A stretch of 64,000 nucleotides of DNA from Glutamicibacter creatinolyticus (GTDB lineage: Bacteria > Actinomycetota > Actinomycetes > Actinomycetales > Micrococcaceae): the NCBI RefSeq assembly GCF_006094275.1, contig NZ_CP034412.1, positions 868,001-932,000 on the forward strand. Reading direction: 5' to 3'. Shown one piece after another: positions 2,459-8,381 of the stretch; position 1 is the stretch's first letter, and each line of letters starts with the position of its first letter. A model generated the notes under the pieces. The model was not told the DNA's origin, did not search any database, and saw nothing but the letters and a program-made list of their open reading frames with translations. The translations under genes and the position numbers were made by a program.

Positions 2459-4081
2459 ATGTCCGCATCGATGATCCTGGCCCAGGCGGCCAGCGAGACC
2501 ACGGTGGGCAACCCGTGGGTGAATATTGCGATCTTCGCCGGCTTCGTTGGGGTAACCCTGGTGATCGTGCTCAAGGCGAGCAAGAACAACAAGACCGCAG
2601 CCGACTACTACGCCGGCGGCCGGTCCTTCACCGGAACACAGAACGGCACCGCTATCGCCGGTGACTACCTCTCCGCCGCCTCGTTCCTGGGCATTGTCGG
2701 GGCAATCGCGATCAACGGCTACGACGGGTTCCTGTACTCCATCGGGTTCCTGGTCGCCTGGCTGGTGGCCCTGCTGCTGGTCGCCGAACTGCTGCGCAAC
2801 ACCGGCAAGTTCACCATGGCCGACGTGCTCTCCTTCCGCCTGAAGCAGCGCCCGGTGCGCATCGCCGCGGCGGTCTCCACCCTGGCGGTGTGCGTGTTCT
2901 ACCTGCTGGCGCAGATGGCCGGCGCCGGTGCGCTGGTCTCCCTGCTGCTGGGCATCGATGAGAAGCTGGGCCAGTCCCTGGTGATCGTGGTCGTCGGCGC
3001 GCTGATGATCCTCTACGTACTGGTCGGCGGCATGAAGGGCACCACCTGGGTGCAGATCATCAAGGCCTGCCTGCTGATTGCCGGTACCTTCGTGATGACC
3101 ATCTGGACCCTGGCGCTGTTCGGCTTCAACTTCTCCGAGCTGCTGGGCACCGCCGCCGAGGTGGCGAACAACCCCGAGATCCTGAACCCGGGCCTGAAGT
3201 ACGGGGTCAGCGAGACCAGCAAGCTGGACTTCATCTCCCTGGGCCTGGCCCTGGTGCTGGGCACCGCCGGCCTGCCGCACGTGCTGATGCGCTTCTACAC
3301 GGTTCCCACCGCGAAGGAAGCCCGCAAGTCGGTGGTCTGGGCGATCTGGCTGATCGGTGCCTTCTACCTGTTCACCCTGGTGCTGGGCTACGGCGCCGGT
3401 GCGCTGATCGGACCGGACAAGATCCTGGCGGCCCCGGGCGGCGTGAACTCCGCGGCCCCGCTGCTGGCCTACGAACTGGGCGGCACCCTGCTGCTGGGTC
3501 TGATCTCCGCGGTCGCGTTCGCAACCATCCTGGCCGTGGTGGCCGGGCTGACCATCACCGCGGCGGCATCCTTCGCCCACGACATCTACTCCTCGGTGCT
3601 GGCCAAGGGCAAGAGCACCCCGCAGAAGGAGATGAAGGTGGCCCGCCGCACCGTGTTGGTGATCGGCGTGCTGTCCATCGCCGGTGGCATCGGTGCCCAG
3701 GGGCAGAACGTGGCCTTCCTGGTGGCCCTGGCCTTCGCGGTCGCGGCCAGCGCCAACCTGCCGACCATCCTGTACTCGCTGTTCTGGAAGGGCTTCAAGA
3801 CCCGCGGGGCCCTGTGGTCCATGTACGGTGGCCTGTTCTCGGCCCTGGGCCTGATCATCATCTCCCCGGTGTTCTCCGGTTCGGAGACCTCGATGATCCC
3901 GAGCATCGACATGGCGATCTTCCCGCTGTCCAACCCGGGCATCATCTCCATCCCGCTGGCGTTCCTGCTGGGCTGGATCGGCTCGATTACCGATAAGGGC
4001 ACCGAGGACGCGGTCAAGGCCGCCGAAATGGAAGTCCGTTCACTCACCGGGGTTGGCGCCGAAAAGGCCGTGGACCACTAG
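2459..4081 (+). CDS. actP: Monocarboxylate (acetate/pyruvate) sodium:solute symporter
   Basis: 540 residues with about 13 hydrophobic segments, a sodium:solute symporter family member of ActP/MctC type. The motif after the first segments (KTAADYYAGGRSFTGTQNG) and AIAGDYLSAASFLGI are hallmarks of this branch. The start ATG follows the DUF485 stop without a gap. It should take up short monocarboxylates such as acetate, pyruvate or propionate with a cation across the cytoplasmic membrane. Co-location with DUF485 supports this assignment, and the LytS/LytTR pair next door resembles known pyruvate-sensing systems in other bacteria. The exact substrate cannot be read from sequence. A strong terminator follows. 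Confidence 0.9.
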   Translation: MSASMILAQAASETTVGNPWVNIAIFAGFVGVTLVIVLKASKNNKTAADYYAGGRSFTGTQNGTAIAGDYLSAASFLGIVGAIAINGYDGFLYSIGFLVAWLVALLLVAELLRNTGKFTMADVLSFRLKQRPVRIAAAVSTLAVCVFYLLAQMAGAGALVSLLLGIDEKLGQSLVIVVVGALMILYVLVGGMKGTTWVQIIKACLLIAGTFVMTIWTLALFGFNFSELLGTAAEVANNPEILNPGLKYGVSETSKLDFISLGLALVLGTAGLPHVLMRFYTVPTAKEARKSVVWAIWLIGAFYLFTLVLGYGAGALIGPDKILAAPGGVNSAAPLLAYELGGTLLLGLISAVAFATILAVVAGLTITAAASFAHDIYSSVLAKGKSTPQKEMKVARRTVLVIGVLSIAGGIGAQGQNVAFLVALAFAVAASANLPTILYSLFWKGFKTRGALWSMYGGLFSALGLIIISPVFSGSETSMIPSIDMAIFPLSNPGIISIPLAFLLGWIGSITDKGTEDAVKAAEMEVRSLTGVGAEKAVDH

Positions 4082-4126
4082 CGAACACCGGCTGCGTCCC
4101 GTGGGGCGCGGTCCAAAAAACACCAG

Positions 4127-4175
4127 AAATCCTCCGGAAGAACCAGTTAGCGGTTCCTTCCGGAGGATTTTTGCG
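4127..4175 (+). terminator. Rho-independent terminator after the symporter gene
   Basis: AAATCCTCCGGAAG (4127-4140) pairs with CTTCCGGAGGATTT (4157-4170), extended by AACC/GGTT with one bulged C, and is followed by more T residues. It ends the DUF485-symporter operon. Confidence 0.88.
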
Positions 4176-4693
4176 TTGCTCTAAGGCCTGGAAATGTTTG
4201 GGGCCAAGAAAGGCGAATCCGGTTTTTCAAAGGAAAGCGCCAGCGGGAACCCAACAGTTTTTGCGGCGCGGAAAGAGGCCAGAATCACACCCAATGCTCA
4301 CCCGCGCCCGCGGCACCAGGCGGGTGCGGGCAGGAGGTGGCCGACGATTGAACGCGGTAGGAATAACCGGAGAACACGCGGTACTTCGGCTTTTTCCGGG
4401 CATCATTGTCGGTGAAGCATGGCAAGATCAGTGGTGAAGAGATTATCGGTACGCGGCAGTCAGGGATTTCGTGAATGACCTGGGGGTTGTGTATAAATAG
4501 CTCAGTGGTCGCTCTCTTGCGGCCACATCCACACGTATTGGGGAATTTCGATACGTTCGGCTGATGCACCAAGGACTTGAGAGGGGTCTCAATGTCCTGC
4601 CCCGGTGCGGCTGCGCGATTTTCACTACCGCTTATTCGCGCGCAAAAAACTGTTGAACGGCATTGAATTTACATTTATTTGGGGGACTCGCAC
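4176..4693 (+). promoter_or_regulatory. Long leader/promoter region of the glycan operon
   Basis: About 520 bp without a convincing gene, less G+C-rich than the surroundings. A possible extended -10 element (TGTGTATAAA, TATAAA at 4490-4495) would give a leader of roughly 190 nt. A strong stem-loop lies at 4566-4608. TTGAAC at 4653-4658 is a weaker alternative promoter element. Small frames here have poor codon use and no ribosome-binding sites. Confidence 0.45.
4566..4608 (+). promoter_or_regulatory. Leader stem-loop
   Basis: AGGACTTGAGA (4572-4582) pairs with TCTCAATGTCCT (4587-4598) around a GGGG loop with one bulged T. An outer GCACC/GGTGC stem extends it. No T-tract follows directly, so it looks like an mRNA leader structure rather than a plain terminator. 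Confidence 0.5.
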
Positions 4694-5611
4694 ATGCCCT
4701 GGTTGTCATATTTTGCTGCCCTTTTAGGGATAGGGGCGGCGATTGGGTTGTCGCTGGAAAGCCAGCGCACCCGGCTTAGCCGTCGCTTCAGACGCGGCAA
4801 ACAGCTCTATTCATTTCTTTACCTCGGTTCCTTGATCCTCACGTTCGCGAACCTGGCCAGCGCCTTCGGTTGGCTGGCCAGCCGACACCAGGCGGACCTG
4901 ATCGTCCTGGTGACCCTGCTCTTTTTCTTCGTGGTCGCCGGACTGGCAATGAACTACGCCATCATCCCGGCCGTCCCCTCCGAGCAGCGTCGGGTCATCC
5001 TCGCGGTCGGTGCCCATCCCGATGACCTGGAGATCGCCTGCGGTGGGACGTTGGCCAAGCTGGCCGATGCGGGGCACGAAGTCCACGTGCTGGTGATGAG
5101 CAACGGTGCGGTAGGCGGGGACCAGGACATCCGCGGCCATGAGGCGATGCGCGGAGCGCGGTTCATGGGCGCGCTGAGCGTCAAAGCCGGCCGCCTGCCC
5201 GATACCCGGCTTTCGGAATCGTCCAACGAGATGGTCGCGCTGATCGAACAGCGCATCGGAGAACTGGATCCCGACGTGCTGTTCACCCATTCGGAGCACG
5301 ACCAGCACCAGGACCACCACGCCGTGCACCTGGCCACGCTGCGCGCCGCCCGCCGGCACTCTTCGATCCTCTGCTTTGAAAGCCCCTCGGCGACCCGCAA
5401 GTTCAACCCGGCGGTGTTCATTGACATCGAGGACTACCTGGACGTGAAGGTCAACGCGGTCGCCCAGCACCAAAACCAGATGGGCAAGCCCTACATGAGC
5501 GCGGACAATGTGCGCGGCATCGCCGCCTTCCGGGGCAACCAGGCCAAAACCCAATTCGCCGAGGGATTCGAAGCCGTCCGGCTCCTTGGCTCGTCAGTAG
5601 GAGTGTTCTAG
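4694..5611 (+). CDS. Membrane-anchored PIG-L/LmbE-family deacetylase
   Basis: 305 residues from ATG 4694, chosen because GGGGGA at 4681-4686 precedes it. A TTG start 15 bp upstream would lie inside that site. Three hydrophobic segments (about 1-18, 40-60 and 65-88) precede a PIG-L/LmbE domain from residue ~100. The zinc-binding AHPDD motif begins at A107, and the second metal site region DQHQDHHAVH is at 203-212. The loop between segments 1 and 2 is very basic (RTRLSRRFRRGK), which by the positive-inside rule puts the catalytic domain in the cytosol. The family removes N-acetyl groups from GlcNAc-type sugars. It is first in a tight operon (TAG abuts the next ATG) with an ATP-grasp ligase and a glycosyltransferase. 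The substrate is unknown. Confidence 0.88.
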   Translation: MPWLSYFAALLGIGAAIGLSLESQRTRLSRRFRRGKQLYSFLYLGSLILTFANLASAFGWLASRHQADLIVLVTLLFFFVVAGLAMNYAIIPAVPSEQRRVILAVGAHPDDLEIACGGTLAKLADAGHEVHVLVMSNGAVGGDQDIRGHEAMRGARFMGALSVKAGRLPDTRLSESSNEMVALIEQRIGELDPDVLFTHSEHDQHQDHHAVHLATLRAARRHSSILCFESPSATRKFNPAVFIDIEDYLDVKVNAVAQHQNQMGKPYMSADNVRGIAAFRGNQAKTQFAEGFEAVRLLGSSVGVF

Positions 5612-6514
5612 ATGCGAATCCTTATCACCGGGGCCAACGGGCCCGCCGGAATGGCGTTGGGGGAACAGCTGCGCGGATCGGGGCATGAGGTGATCGGGGC
5701 GGACATGGACAACGCGCCGAACGAGTTCTACGACCTCGTCGAGAAGGTGCCGCCCTCCAATGATCCGGGCATGATTCCACGGCTGGCCGACCTGATCCAC
5801 CAGCACGGGGTACAGGTGCTGCTGCCCACGGTCAGCGATGAGCTGCCGGCCGTTGCCGCCGCCCACGAGGCCGGGCAGCTGGGCTGCGTGGTCATGATTG
5901 GTGCCGCCGCGGCGGTGGACACCGCCCACGACAAGTGGCTGACGGTCACCCGGCTGATCAGCAGCGGCGTCCCGGTGCCGCGTTCGGCCCTGCCCAGCCA
6001 CTTCGCCAGCACCCAGCAGGCGGTGGACGCGCTCGGCTCGCCGTTCATCCTCAAGCCGCGGGTGGCCCGGGGCGGGCGTGGGGTCAGCCTCATCGATGCG
6101 GCCGACGAACTGGATCTGGCCGAACTGGATGACAGCTGGCTGCTGCAGGAATTTGCCAGCGGCGAGGAGTACGCGCCCATGGTCTTCCACGCCGGCCCGG
6201 ATTCGGGAACCGATTTTTGTGCCGTGGTCCGCAAGACCGAACTGAAGCAGGGGAAGGTCGGCAACGCCGTGGACACCGTGCGCATCGACGGGCCGGAAGC
6301 CGAGGAGATTGCCGCGCTGGCGCTGGACACGGTTCGGGCCCTGGGCCTTGAGTTCCAGGCGGATCTGGATGTGCGCCGGCTGGCCGATGGCCGGGCCGTG
6401 GTGCTGGAGGTCAACGCCCGCTTCGGCGCCAATTCGCGCCGCGCCCCGCAGCTGCTGGAACTGGTGCTGCAGCAGGCCCAGGCCTTGAGCGTTCAACCCG
6501 TGGGACGAGGCTAG
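5612..6514 (+). CDS. ATP-grasp carboxylate-amine ligase-like protein
   Basis: 300 residues; ATG 5612 directly follows the deacetylase stop, with AGTAGGAG upstream. The N-terminus (ILITGANGPAG) is the Rossmann-like pre-ATP-grasp domain of PylC/CarB-like enzymes. The ATP-grasp core shows FILKPRVARGGRG at about 145-157, LLQEFASGEEY at about 178-188, and the metal/ATP motif LEVNARFG near 267. Family members activate a carboxylate as acyl-phosphate and join it to an amine or thiol. Next to a deacetylase that frees an amine, an attractive role is acylating an amino sugar with an amino acid or other acid; this is inference. It is short and lacks an extra C-terminal domain, so a non-peptide product is possible. 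Confidence 0.85.
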   Translation: MRILITGANGPAGMALGEQLRGSGHEVIGADMDNAPNEFYDLVEKVPPSNDPGMIPRLADLIHQHGVQVLLPTVSDELPAVAAAHEAGQLGCVVMIGAAAAVDTAHDKWLTVTRLISSGVPVPRSALPSHFASTQQAVDALGSPFILKPRVARGGRGVSLIDAADELDLAELDDSWLLQEFASGEEYAPMVFHAGPDSGTDFCAVVRKTELKQGKVGNAVDTVRIDGPEAEEIAALALDTVRALGLEFQADLDVRRLADGRAVVLEVNARFGANSRRAPQLLELVLQQAQALSVQPVGRG

Positions 6515-6517
6515 GCG

Positions 6518-7792
6518 ATGCAGTTCTTCATTGACCTCTTCGGCGACGGCGTCGATTCGATCTGGATGATCCTCTTCGGGCTGTTCCTGGTCAGCGGCGG
6601 GCTGATCCTGGGGATGGGGCTGATCAAGCTGGCCTTCGTGCCGTTGTCGCTGGCCTTCGTGTTCCGGGAACGGCGGCGCAGGGCCGCTGCCGGATCGCCG
6701 CTGCTGGAAAGCCGGCCCCGGGTGAGCATCGTGGTGCCGGCCTACAACGAGGCCGTGGTACTCGATCACTGCGTCGAATCCATCCTGGGCAGCAATTACC
6801 CGGATTTTGAGGTGATTCTGGTCGACGATGGGTCGGCGGACGGCACCGCCCAGCTGATGCAGCGGTGGGCCGAACGCGATCCGCGGGTGCGCAGCTTCTC
6901 CCAACCGAACTCCGGCAAGGGCGCAGCCCTGAATTACGGGTTCGCGCAGAGCACTGGGGAAGTGCTGCTGTTCGTGGATGCCGACGGCGTCTTTGGCGCC
7001 GAGACCATCAACGAGATGCTGCGCGGCTTCAGCCACCCGCGCATCGGGGCGGTGTGCGGGGATGACCGTCCGGTGAACCTGAACACCGTGCAGACCCGGC
7101 TGCTGACCGTCATCTCCCACCTGGGCACCGGGGTGGTGCGCCGGGCGCTGGCGTTCATCGGGTGCCTGCCGATCGTCTCGGGGAACTCCGGGGCGTTCTT
7201 GCGCAGCGCGCTGGAGGAGGCCGGGCCGTTGGACGAGCGGATCATCGGCGAGGACCTGGAGCTGACCTGGCGAGTGCACAAGGCCGGCTACCAGGTGAAT
7301 TTTGCCCCGCGGGCGCTGGTGTACGCCGAATCCCCGTCCACGCTCAGGGGCTTGTGGCGTCAACGGGTGCGCTGGGCGCGCGGGCTGCTGCAGACAATCC
7401 GCATCCACCGTTCCATGCACGCGAACCCGCGGTACGGGGCGTTTGGCTTCTTCCTGCTGTTCAACACCTTCAACATGGTGGTGATGCCGGTCGTGCAGCT
7501 GCTGGTGCTGCTGGCACTGCCGTTCGTGATCATCTTCGGGACCAACCCGATCGGCGGCACCTGGCTCGAGTTCCTGGCCTGGCTCGGGATCTTCGTCTCC
7601 CTGTTCCTGGCCCTCTATGCGATGACGCTGAACCGGGCGCTGGGGGACACCCGGCACCTGTGGACGATTCCGCTGTGGCCGGTGTACTCGGTGCTGATGG
7701 GTCTGAGCATGCTCAGCGCCCTGTTCAAGGAGCTCACCAACAAGCCGGCGAAGTGGGACAAGCTGGAGCGCACCGGGGTCGTGTCCCTCTAG
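6518..7792 (+). CDS. Processive family-2 glycosyltransferase, membrane-bound
   Basis: 424 residues; ATG 6518 lies 3 bp after the ATP-grasp stop. An N-terminal membrane segment (about 17-50) precedes a GT2 domain with VVPAYNE, VDDGSADG at about 102, VDADG near 153, GEDLELTWRV near 244 and QRVRWARG near 282. This is the D, DxD, ED, QxxRW set of processive synthases such as PgaC/IcaA, NodC and hyaluronan synthase. Several C-terminal membrane segments (about 310-395) should form the export channel. It probably polymerises or transfers a UDP-amino sugar at the membrane. With the two upstream genes it forms one transcription unit. No separate polysaccharide exporter is visible nearby. Confidence 0.9.
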   Translation: MQFFIDLFGDGVDSIWMILFGLFLVSGGLILGMGLIKLAFVPLSLAFVFRERRRRAAAGSPLLESRPRVSIVVPAYNEAVVLDHCVESILGSNYPDFEVILVDDGSADGTAQLMQRWAERDPRVRSFSQPNSGKGAALNYGFAQSTGEVLLFVDADGVFGAETINEMLRGFSHPRIGAVCGDDRPVNLNTVQTRLLTVISHLGTGVVRRALAFIGCLPIVSGNSGAFLRSALEEAGPLDERIIGEDLELTWRVHKAGYQVNFAPRALVYAESPSTLRGLWRQRVRWARGLLQTIRIHRSMHANPRYGAFGFFLLFNTFNMVVMPVVQLLVLLALPFVIIFGTNPIGGTWLEFLAWLGIFVSLFLALYAMTLNRALGDTRHLWTIPLWPVYSVLMGLSMLSALFKELTNKPAKWDKLERTGVVSL

Positions 7793-7856
7793 GCGCGCCA
7801 CCGCCGCCGGAAGATTCCAGGGCCGCTGTGGGGAACGGGACGCACCGTGATGGTGC

Positions 7857-8381
7857 TCAGGCCGGTTCCCCGCAGCGGCCCTGCCCGTTCCCGGCCGTTT
7901 CGGCGCCGCTGCGGTGTTCTCCCAGGGACATCTCGATCAGCTTCGTGGTGCGGTAGGGCACCAGCTCGGCCATCGACAGGGCCGAGTCCGCGCGCTGCAC
8001 CCCTTCAATGTTCAGCAGCCGGCCGTGCACCCGGAACAGCTCCTCGGCATTTGCCGCGGCCACCCGCACCAGGATGTCCGCCGACCCGGTCAGCCCGTGG
8101 GCCTCGATGACCTCCGGGATTTGGCGCAGCTGTTCGGTGATGGTGCCCAGGTGGCGCTGCTGCACGTGCAGTTCCACGAAGGAGAGCAGGCCGAAGCCCA
8201 GTGCCGCCGGCGGGATGCGCCGGTCCATCGGATCCAACACCTCGCCCTCCAGCCGGCTGAGCCGGCTCTGCACCGTATTGCGTCCCATCCCCAGGGCGGC
8301 GGCGATCGCCGAGGCGCTGCGCCGGGCAACGGAGGACAGGGCCAGCAGAATCCGGCGGTCGGTTGAATCAAGGGCTTGCAT
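7857..8381 (-). CDS. AsnC/Lrp-family regulator, probable BkdR
   Basis: 174 residues from ATG 8379-8381 (MQALDSTDRRIL); an in-frame start 42 bp further upstream would add a non-conserved tail. An N-terminal winged helix (LDSTDRRILLAL, ASAIAAALGMGRNTVQSRLSRL) is followed by the RAM ligand-binding domain (about 75-150). Lrp/AsnC proteins bind amino acids and form octameric assemblies on DNA. It is divergent to the 2-oxoacid dehydrogenase operon, as bkdR is in many bacteria, and an operator-like palindrome lies between them. Branched-chain amino acids or their oxoacids are the likely effectors (inference). It converges with the glycosyltransferase gene (64 bp gap). Confidence 0.9.
   Translation of the reverse strand: MQALDSTDRRILLALSSVARRSASAIAAALGMGRNTVQSRLSRLEGEVLDPMDRRIPPAALGFGLLSFVELHVQQRHLGTITEQLRQIPEVIEAHGLTGSADILVRVAAANAEELFRVHGRLLNIEGVQRADSALSMAELVPYRTTKLIEMSLGEHRSGAETAGNGQGRCGEPA

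Follow-up and report, generated by a model that had tools for sequence, protein, structure and literature searches.

What a bacterium might build with a sugar deacetylase, an ATP-grasp enzyme and a processive glycosyltransferase encoded side by side is the question raised by a 64,000-nucleotide stretch of the Glutamicibacter creatinolyticus genome (NZ_CP034412.1, positions 868,001 to 932,000), referred to here as the window (C1:868001-932000 of the 3.3 Mb genome G000). The open reading frames and the sequence place three co-directional genes at window positions 4694-7792 on the plus strand, separated by 0 and 3 bp, as the initial annotation had described. They encode a PIG-L family de-N-acetylase, a ligase of the ATP-grasp superfamily, and a family 2 glycosyltransferase (GT2), and the three enzymes almost certainly act in one pathway. 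The reading preferred here, in which they make a re-acylated and exported amino-sugar polymer, has about an even chance of being correct as a whole. All of the parts belong to known families, and their combination is undescribed in the literature searched.

The distribution of the trio in the family was traced with a profile of four ATP-grasp proteins, which recovered 26 matches in 25 of 395 genomes. The genomes searched here are draws from larger groups, neighbors were sought from 1.5 to approximately 10 kb on each side, and in the large searches only some of the initial candidates of each genome were scored (up to five in the phylum, five in the family with ATP-grasp, four in the family with GT2, and six in the class). 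The initial annotation had staked its proposal on conservation of the gene order among relatives, and the order PIG-L, ATP-grasp, GT2 is indeed kept in 14 of the 26 matches, while in genome G499 all three genes are present, reordered and partly duplicated; this conservation excludes a chance arrangement. Damaged remains of the GT2 gene, and no PIG-L gene, are found in G673, G626, and G607, and seven of the 26 matches have neither partner in the surrounding 20 kb. A second ATP-grasp copy in G805 lies approximately 5 kb from the intact trio and has no PIG-L gene of its own, a short remnant of the GT2 tail survives in G789, and no PIG-L remnant was found at any of the 10 loci that lack this gene. 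The G499 locus (L048:8004-17490) holds a degenerate ATP-grasp copy beside the intact one, followed by two tandem modules of PIG-L, GT2, and a third gene, GHL-like, which is considered below.

The linked loss of catalytic residues in these relatives is the strongest evidence that the three enzymes serve one pathway. In the aligned family sequences, the three metal ligands of the ATP-grasp enzyme are intact in all 15 copies that lie beside a PIG-L gene, versus two of the 11 that do not, a count that leaves out the degenerate extra copy of G499, which lies near PIG-L. The association between ligand retention and the presence of PIG-L (Fisher p = 1.8e-5) is indicative only, given that the sequences are related. 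The GT2 motifs follow the same pattern, with a full set in each of the 15 family trios and damage in every one of the three GT2 genes that lack a PIG-L neighbor. This joint loss of catalytic residues indicates that the three enzymes depend on each other.

The glycosyltransferase tells a similar story when it is used as the query. Fifteen of the same 395 genomes have close matches to a GT2 profile (16 in total, E <= 1e-139), and an ATP-grasp gene is present in every one of the 15. The next score belongs to G607 (4e-70) and is followed, from 2e-66, by a different group with mostly longer open frames, in which the three proteins scanned are all fusions of a CE4-type deacetylase with a GT2. The fusion of these nearest other enzymes to a deacetylase indicates that the lineage of the window's GT2 goes with deacetylated N-acetylhexosamine (HexNAc) glycans.

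The three products are well defined at the level of the family or superfamily. The PIG-L protein (4694..5611, plus strand; 305 amino acids) begins at an ATG, with an alternative in-frame TTG start possible at 4679, and matches PF02585 (6.5e-26; 91.8 bits against a gathering threshold of 28.2) with intact AHPDD and HxDH (HQDH) motifs; together with three N-terminal hydrophobic segments, this bears out the earlier description of a membrane-tethered deacetylase. The ATP-grasp protein (5612..6514, plus strand; 300 amino acids), which is CarB/PylC-like, matches PF02655, ATP-grasp_3 (1.5e-11; 45 bits against 23.2), and is under the Pfam cut-off for PylC-like_N (21.1 against 27 bits). Its residues D253, E266, and N268 are presumed, by analogy with known ATP-grasp enzymes, to bind the metal, and K108 and K148 to act as the conserved lysines; all five are intact. 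An AlphaFold2 model of this protein from a two-row alignment was unusable, with a mean predicted local distance difference test score of 46.5. The PgaC/NodC-like GT2 (6518..7792, plus strand; 424 amino acids) matches PF00535 (1.8e-33) and PF13641 (6.3e-29). Processive enzymes of this family are recognized by D, DxD, (G/T)ED, and QxxRW motifs and by flanking membrane segments, and the window's protein has DDGS, DADG, GED, and QRVRW, one N-terminal and three C-terminal hydrophobic segments, and a further weak hydrophobic segment within the catalytic domain. The short PylC/CarB-like ATP-grasp enzyme and the QxxRW glycosyltransferase were thus correctly recognized from the outset. The content of guanine and cytosine at third codon positions is high in all three genes (0.82 in PIG-L, 0.86 in ATP-grasp, and 0.91 in GT2).

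The side of the membrane on which deacetylation takes place can be predicted from the segments that precede the deacetylase domain. Three hydrophobic segments are present in the window's PIG-L protein and in 15 of 16 homologues, one of the 16 being from a plasmid record, with two segments in the G805 protein. The loop between the first and second segments is positive in all 16, and the next loop, where it can be defined, carries at most one positive charge. Under the positive-inside rule, these charges place the catalytic domain on the cytosolic side, as a prediction from the sequence, and this is the compartment of the ATP-grasp enzyme, as the chemistry put forward in the initial annotation requires.

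Given this, the operon would encode one membrane-associated pathway. The GT2 would add or polymerize an N-acetylhexosamine from a UDP-sugar, and the PIG-L protein, acting from the cytosolic side of the membrane, would strip this sugar, nascent or linked to a lipid, of its N-acetyl group. A carboxylic acid, which may be an amino acid, would next be activated by the ATP-grasp enzyme at the expense of ATP and attached to the amine thus exposed; once re-acylated, the product would exit through the pore of the GT2; in the relatives, the GHL-like protein may trim this product outside the cell. The deacetylation of HexNAc in the cytosol is likely, and a polymer is the moderately favored product over a glycolipid, while the re-acylation of the freed amine by the ATP-grasp enzyme has slightly better than an even prospect. 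The original proposal of a glucosamine-type lipid or polymer acylated on its amine is therefore supported in part, through the conserved order, the linked loss of residues, and the predicted cytosolic deacetylase beside the ATP-grasp enzyme; we infer the sugar substrate, the acyl donor, the order of the steps, the N-acylation, and the polymeric nature of the product.

The linkage of the three genes extends beyond the family. A search of 396 genomes of the phylum with the single ATP-grasp sequence found, besides G000, the genomes G427, G283, and G210, all three with PIG-L and GT2 genes nearby, and the same neighbors lie near the ATP-grasp gene of G049, found in the first search. A wider ATP-grasp profile gave 33 matches in 32 of 345 genomes of the class; among the 11 best of these (E <= 5e-71), which include that of the window, 10 lie within approximately 6 kb of PIG-L and GT2 genes. 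In other families, the linkage is kept with a changed order or spacing in G427, G210, G283, G049, G811, G949, G940, and G039, and also in G834, G840, G1074, G1082, and G1013.

Two kinds of variation stand out among these loci. A receiver domain (REC) is fused to PIG-L in four scanned proteins, from G210, G427, G811, and G949, and none was found in the scanned PIG-L proteins of G736 and G283. The fusion genes lie beside ATP-grasp and GT2 genes at L068:10609-11856, L066:7719-9209, L160:10013-11740, and L161:248-1315, and their products are apparently sugar deacetylases under direct phosphorelay control. At L068, a histidine kinase gene and a response regulator gene are found just upstream of the fusion. 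The other variation is a UDP-GlcNAc 2-epimerase gene, which adjoins the ATP-grasp gene in G834 (over the TIGR00236 cut-off), G840, G283, and G049, and in two of these genomes, at L157:9356-10858 and L158:8642-10084, the ATP-grasp protein has N-terminal HEAT-like repeats (under the cut-off in G834 and over it in G840). The scan identified a PHP gene in G210 only.

From these loci, a broader proposal may be put forward tentatively, with less confidence than the reading of the window itself: a synthase-dependent polysaccharide in which, within the cell and during polymerization, the amino sugars lose their acetyl groups and receive an amino acid or another acid instead, through an ATP-dependent ligase that would be the ATP-grasp counterpart of NodA. 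This system would be scattered and unrecognized in the Actinomycetota, with subtypes tied to two-component signaling (through REC-PIG-L) and to UDP-N-acetylmannosamine (through the 2-epimerase).

A number of observations weigh against the preferred reading. None of the three proteins reaches the cut-off of any characterized NCBIfam family, their best matches being BshB1 (81.7 of 182.5 bits), PRK12767 (92.2 of 218), and PgaC_IcaA (199 of 422.3), respectively. A strong match in the class, in G1094, has neither a PIG-L nor a GT2 gene in the surrounding 14 kb, and 18 of the 19 weaker class matches examined have neither PIG-L nor GT2 within 1.5 kb, a short view given that PIG-L lies beyond 1.5 kb in five of the 10 positive strong loci; the weaker match in G908 has PIG-L within 1.5 kb and a weak GT2-like match 2.6 kb away. 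These partnerless matches show that the ATP-grasp fold does not of itself tie an enzyme to amino sugars. Two family ATP-grasp copies without PIG-L keep their metal ligands, and the solitary ATP-grasp genes still have ratios of nonsynonymous to synonymous substitution (dN/dS) of 0.09-0.22 in five pairs, so that the loss of ligands is not simple decay, and these genes may keep some other role. Two accessory genes of the relatives were also not found here: no GHL-like match was found in the window's genome, in a search with one query protein and no positive control, and a fusion of an extracytoplasmic function (ECF) sigma factor, zf-HC2, and a proline-rich region, which adjoins seven of the 15 intact family loci and six of the 10 without PIG-L (domains scanned in three), was not found beside the window's trio.

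The strongest competitor, although rather unlikely, is a glycolipid pathway, in which the GT2 would load a lipid carrier with a single HexNAc residue or a few of them, to be deacetylated by PIG-L and given an acyl or aminoacyl group by the ATP-grasp enzyme. The eukaryotic PIG-L deacetylates N-acetylglucosaminyl-phosphatidylinositol, and a PIG-L with three membrane segments and a predicted cytosol-facing domain suits a membrane-bound substrate; MftF and HpnI, which are non-polymerizing glycosyltransferases, are also among the lower NCBIfam matches of the GT2. The QRVRW motif is nevertheless retained in this enzyme, and the NCBIfam family that it matches best, both in the window and in five relatives that were scanned, is the synthase of poly-N-acetylglucosamine (PNAG). 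The GHL-like gene also points to a polymer. It follows GT2 at 11 of the 15 intact family loci versus none of the 10 without PIG-L, in a profile search of all open reading frames, and also at three loci of another family (G1074, G1082, and G1013), and this count favors the polymer a little. Some copies begin with a signal- or lipobox-like segment, seen by eye, and the protein is probably secreted. The Pfam support for a glycosidase is weak, with sub-threshold matches to GHL10 in two of eight proteins and to GHL6 in one of eight, and the profile found no convincing relative in the PDB, where the best match (E 0.26) is an unrelated acetyltransferase. The same profile search of open reading frames found no GHL-like gene beside the window's trio.

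It is still less probable that the ATP-grasp enzyme leaves the amine alone, and either amidates a carboxylate of the glycan, of a uronic or lactyl type, or synthesizes a donor in the form of a small acyl or peptide compound, with PIG-L yielding a partly deacetylated, cationic polymer. According to the part of the source consulted (PMC11800379), Campylobacter Cj1438 offers a precedent: in this protein, an ATP-grasp domain is combined with a GT2, and glucuronic acid is amidated before the chain is extended. No uronate-forming gene was found, however, among the operon and the scanned neighbors, and the absence of PIG-L goes with the loss of the ATP-grasp ligands in nine of 11 copies, which fits a PIG-L that makes the substrate of the ATP-grasp enzyme. 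A mycothiol-like soluble glycoside, with glucosamine conjugated to an amino acid, would follow the three-step logic of MshA-MshB-MshC and BshA-BshB-BshC and would suit BshB1 as the best NCBIfam match of PIG-L, but is very improbable, given that the glycosyltransferase is a membrane GT2, that PIG-L is membrane bound and under the BshB1, BshB2, MshB, and Mca cut-offs, and that four other PIG-L genes in the genome could serve mycothiol.

Of the 18 genomes of the genus, four have an ATP-grasp match, the same four have a GT2 match, and in each of them both genes are contiguous with PIG-L. G000 and G003 share the site of the trio, which lies elsewhere, with different neighbors, in G013 and G016. Sixteen genomes have no trio at the site occupied in the window, and in 13 of them the flanking symporter and regulator genes directly adjoin (<=113 bp between the aligned ends), while approximately 1.4 kb separates them in G001, and G009 and G005 have no symporter within 1.5 kb. 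This patchiness suggests that gain or loss of the trio probably involved all three genes at once. A scan of genome contigs with GT2 returned a single locus, in Glutamicibacter soli (NZ_POAF01000002.1).

Upstream of the trio in the window are a DUF485 gene and an SSF symporter gene (both from Pfam), the latter presumably actP, and downstream are a convergent Lrp/AsnC-type regulator and then E1 dehydrogenase or transketolase-type genes. The leader of the operon (4180..4693, plus strand) contains no convincing gene and fills the place where most relatives have the symporter gene immediately beside the AsnC-type gene. Just past the symporter gene, at 4130-4175, a long inverted repeat followed by a run of T was seen by eye, and was not listed by the plus-strand scan; it is probably the terminator of the symporter gene. 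No sigma-70 consensus was found in 4000-8000, which says little against an expectation of 0.4.

Six of the solitary ATP-grasp genes in the family lie between an ECF sigma fusion and a phosphoenolpyruvate carboxylase gene (Pfam scan of one, with the same cluster in the others), at L055:9395-10330, L056:8881-9828, L059:9336-10415, L060:9124-10080, L061:9267-10349, and L063:9376-10323. The metal ligands are lost in four of the six, yet dN/dS is approximately 0.1-0.2 in the pairs compared, which cover all but the L063 copy; these proteins are possible retained pseudo-enzymes with a new role. In a more distant setting, on pSymB of Sinorhizobium meliloti (L043:9264-11934), PHP, ATP-grasp, and oxidoreductase genes directly follow cysD-nodQ-cysQ, and this ATP-grasp protein is approximately 27% identical to that of the window.

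If the preferred reading is true, three enzymes in a compact module would make a class of surface glycan, or glycolipid, with modified amines in the Actinomycetota, deacetylation would take place within the cell instead of outside it, and a family of ATP-grasp enzymes that databases label only as “carbamoyl phosphate synthase-like” would gain a substrate context. Defined N-acylated aminoglycans could then be produced with the module, and the host genus is culturable.

The initial annotation knew of no characterized pathway with this trio, and the open-licence literature searched, subscription papers being outside its scope, likewise held no description of the trio nor any paper on PIG-L with ATP-grasp; the parts consulted of PMC12419801 and PMC8407117 contain nothing that bears on it. 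The closest sequence match of the ATP-grasp profile in the PDB, the CarB-like 2pn1 (1.7e-12), is a “carbamoylphosphate synthase large subunit” by its depositors' name only, and membership in PylC was rejected (TIGR03909, 27.8 of 248.3 bits).

Several known systems share features with the trio. The deacetylation of PNAG by PgaB or IcaB is extracellular and of the CE4 type. The PNAG systems (PgaABCD and IcaADBC) and the CE4-GT2 fusions share with the trio a related GT2, with TIGR03937 as its best NCBIfam match, and the deacetylation of a HexNAc glycan, whereas the trio has a predicted cytosolic PIG-L and an ATP-grasp enzyme. Membership in a PNAG operon was rejected, with TIGR03937 at 199 of 422.3 bits and PIG-L and ATP-grasp genes, but no CE4 deacetylase, as neighbors. 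In Cj1438 of the Campylobacter jejuni capsule, amide formation by an ATP-grasp enzyme on the growing glycan precedes the next glycosyl transfer (PMC11800379, in the portion available), so that, as proposed for the trio, GT2 and ATP-grasp act together on a glycan; this enzyme is TupA-like, that portion does not mention PIG-L, and its amidation of a uronic carboxylate is a further point against N-acylation.

In mycothiol and bacillithiol synthesis, once a glycosyltransferase and a PIG-L-type deacetylase have acted, a ligase couples cysteine to the glucosamine amine so exposed, the activity of BshC being then still unproven in vitro (PMC4360819, as far as consulted). The trio has the same succession of glycosyltransferase, PIG-L, and amine ligase, but with a membrane GT2 of the PgaC/NodC kind, a membrane-anchored deacetylase, and an ATP-grasp ligase. 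Membership in a side branch of mycothiol synthesis was rejected on the scores for MshB (25.2 of 224.35 bits), Mca (21.8 of 277.15), BshB1 (81.7 of 182.5), and BshB2 (37.3 of 195.25), together with the four other PIG-L genes. In the synthesis of the Nod factor, the GT2 NodC is followed by the deacetylase NodB, which frees an amine, and by NodA, which N-acylates it. In the part of the source consulted, these three proteins are named as making the backbone of the factor (PMC5080398). Membership in NodABC was rejected, with NodC at 85.8 of 550 bits and none of the three genes matching a CE4 or NodA-type family, and the likeness is one of logic, in which PIG-L would stand in for NodB and the ATP-grasp enzyme for NodA.

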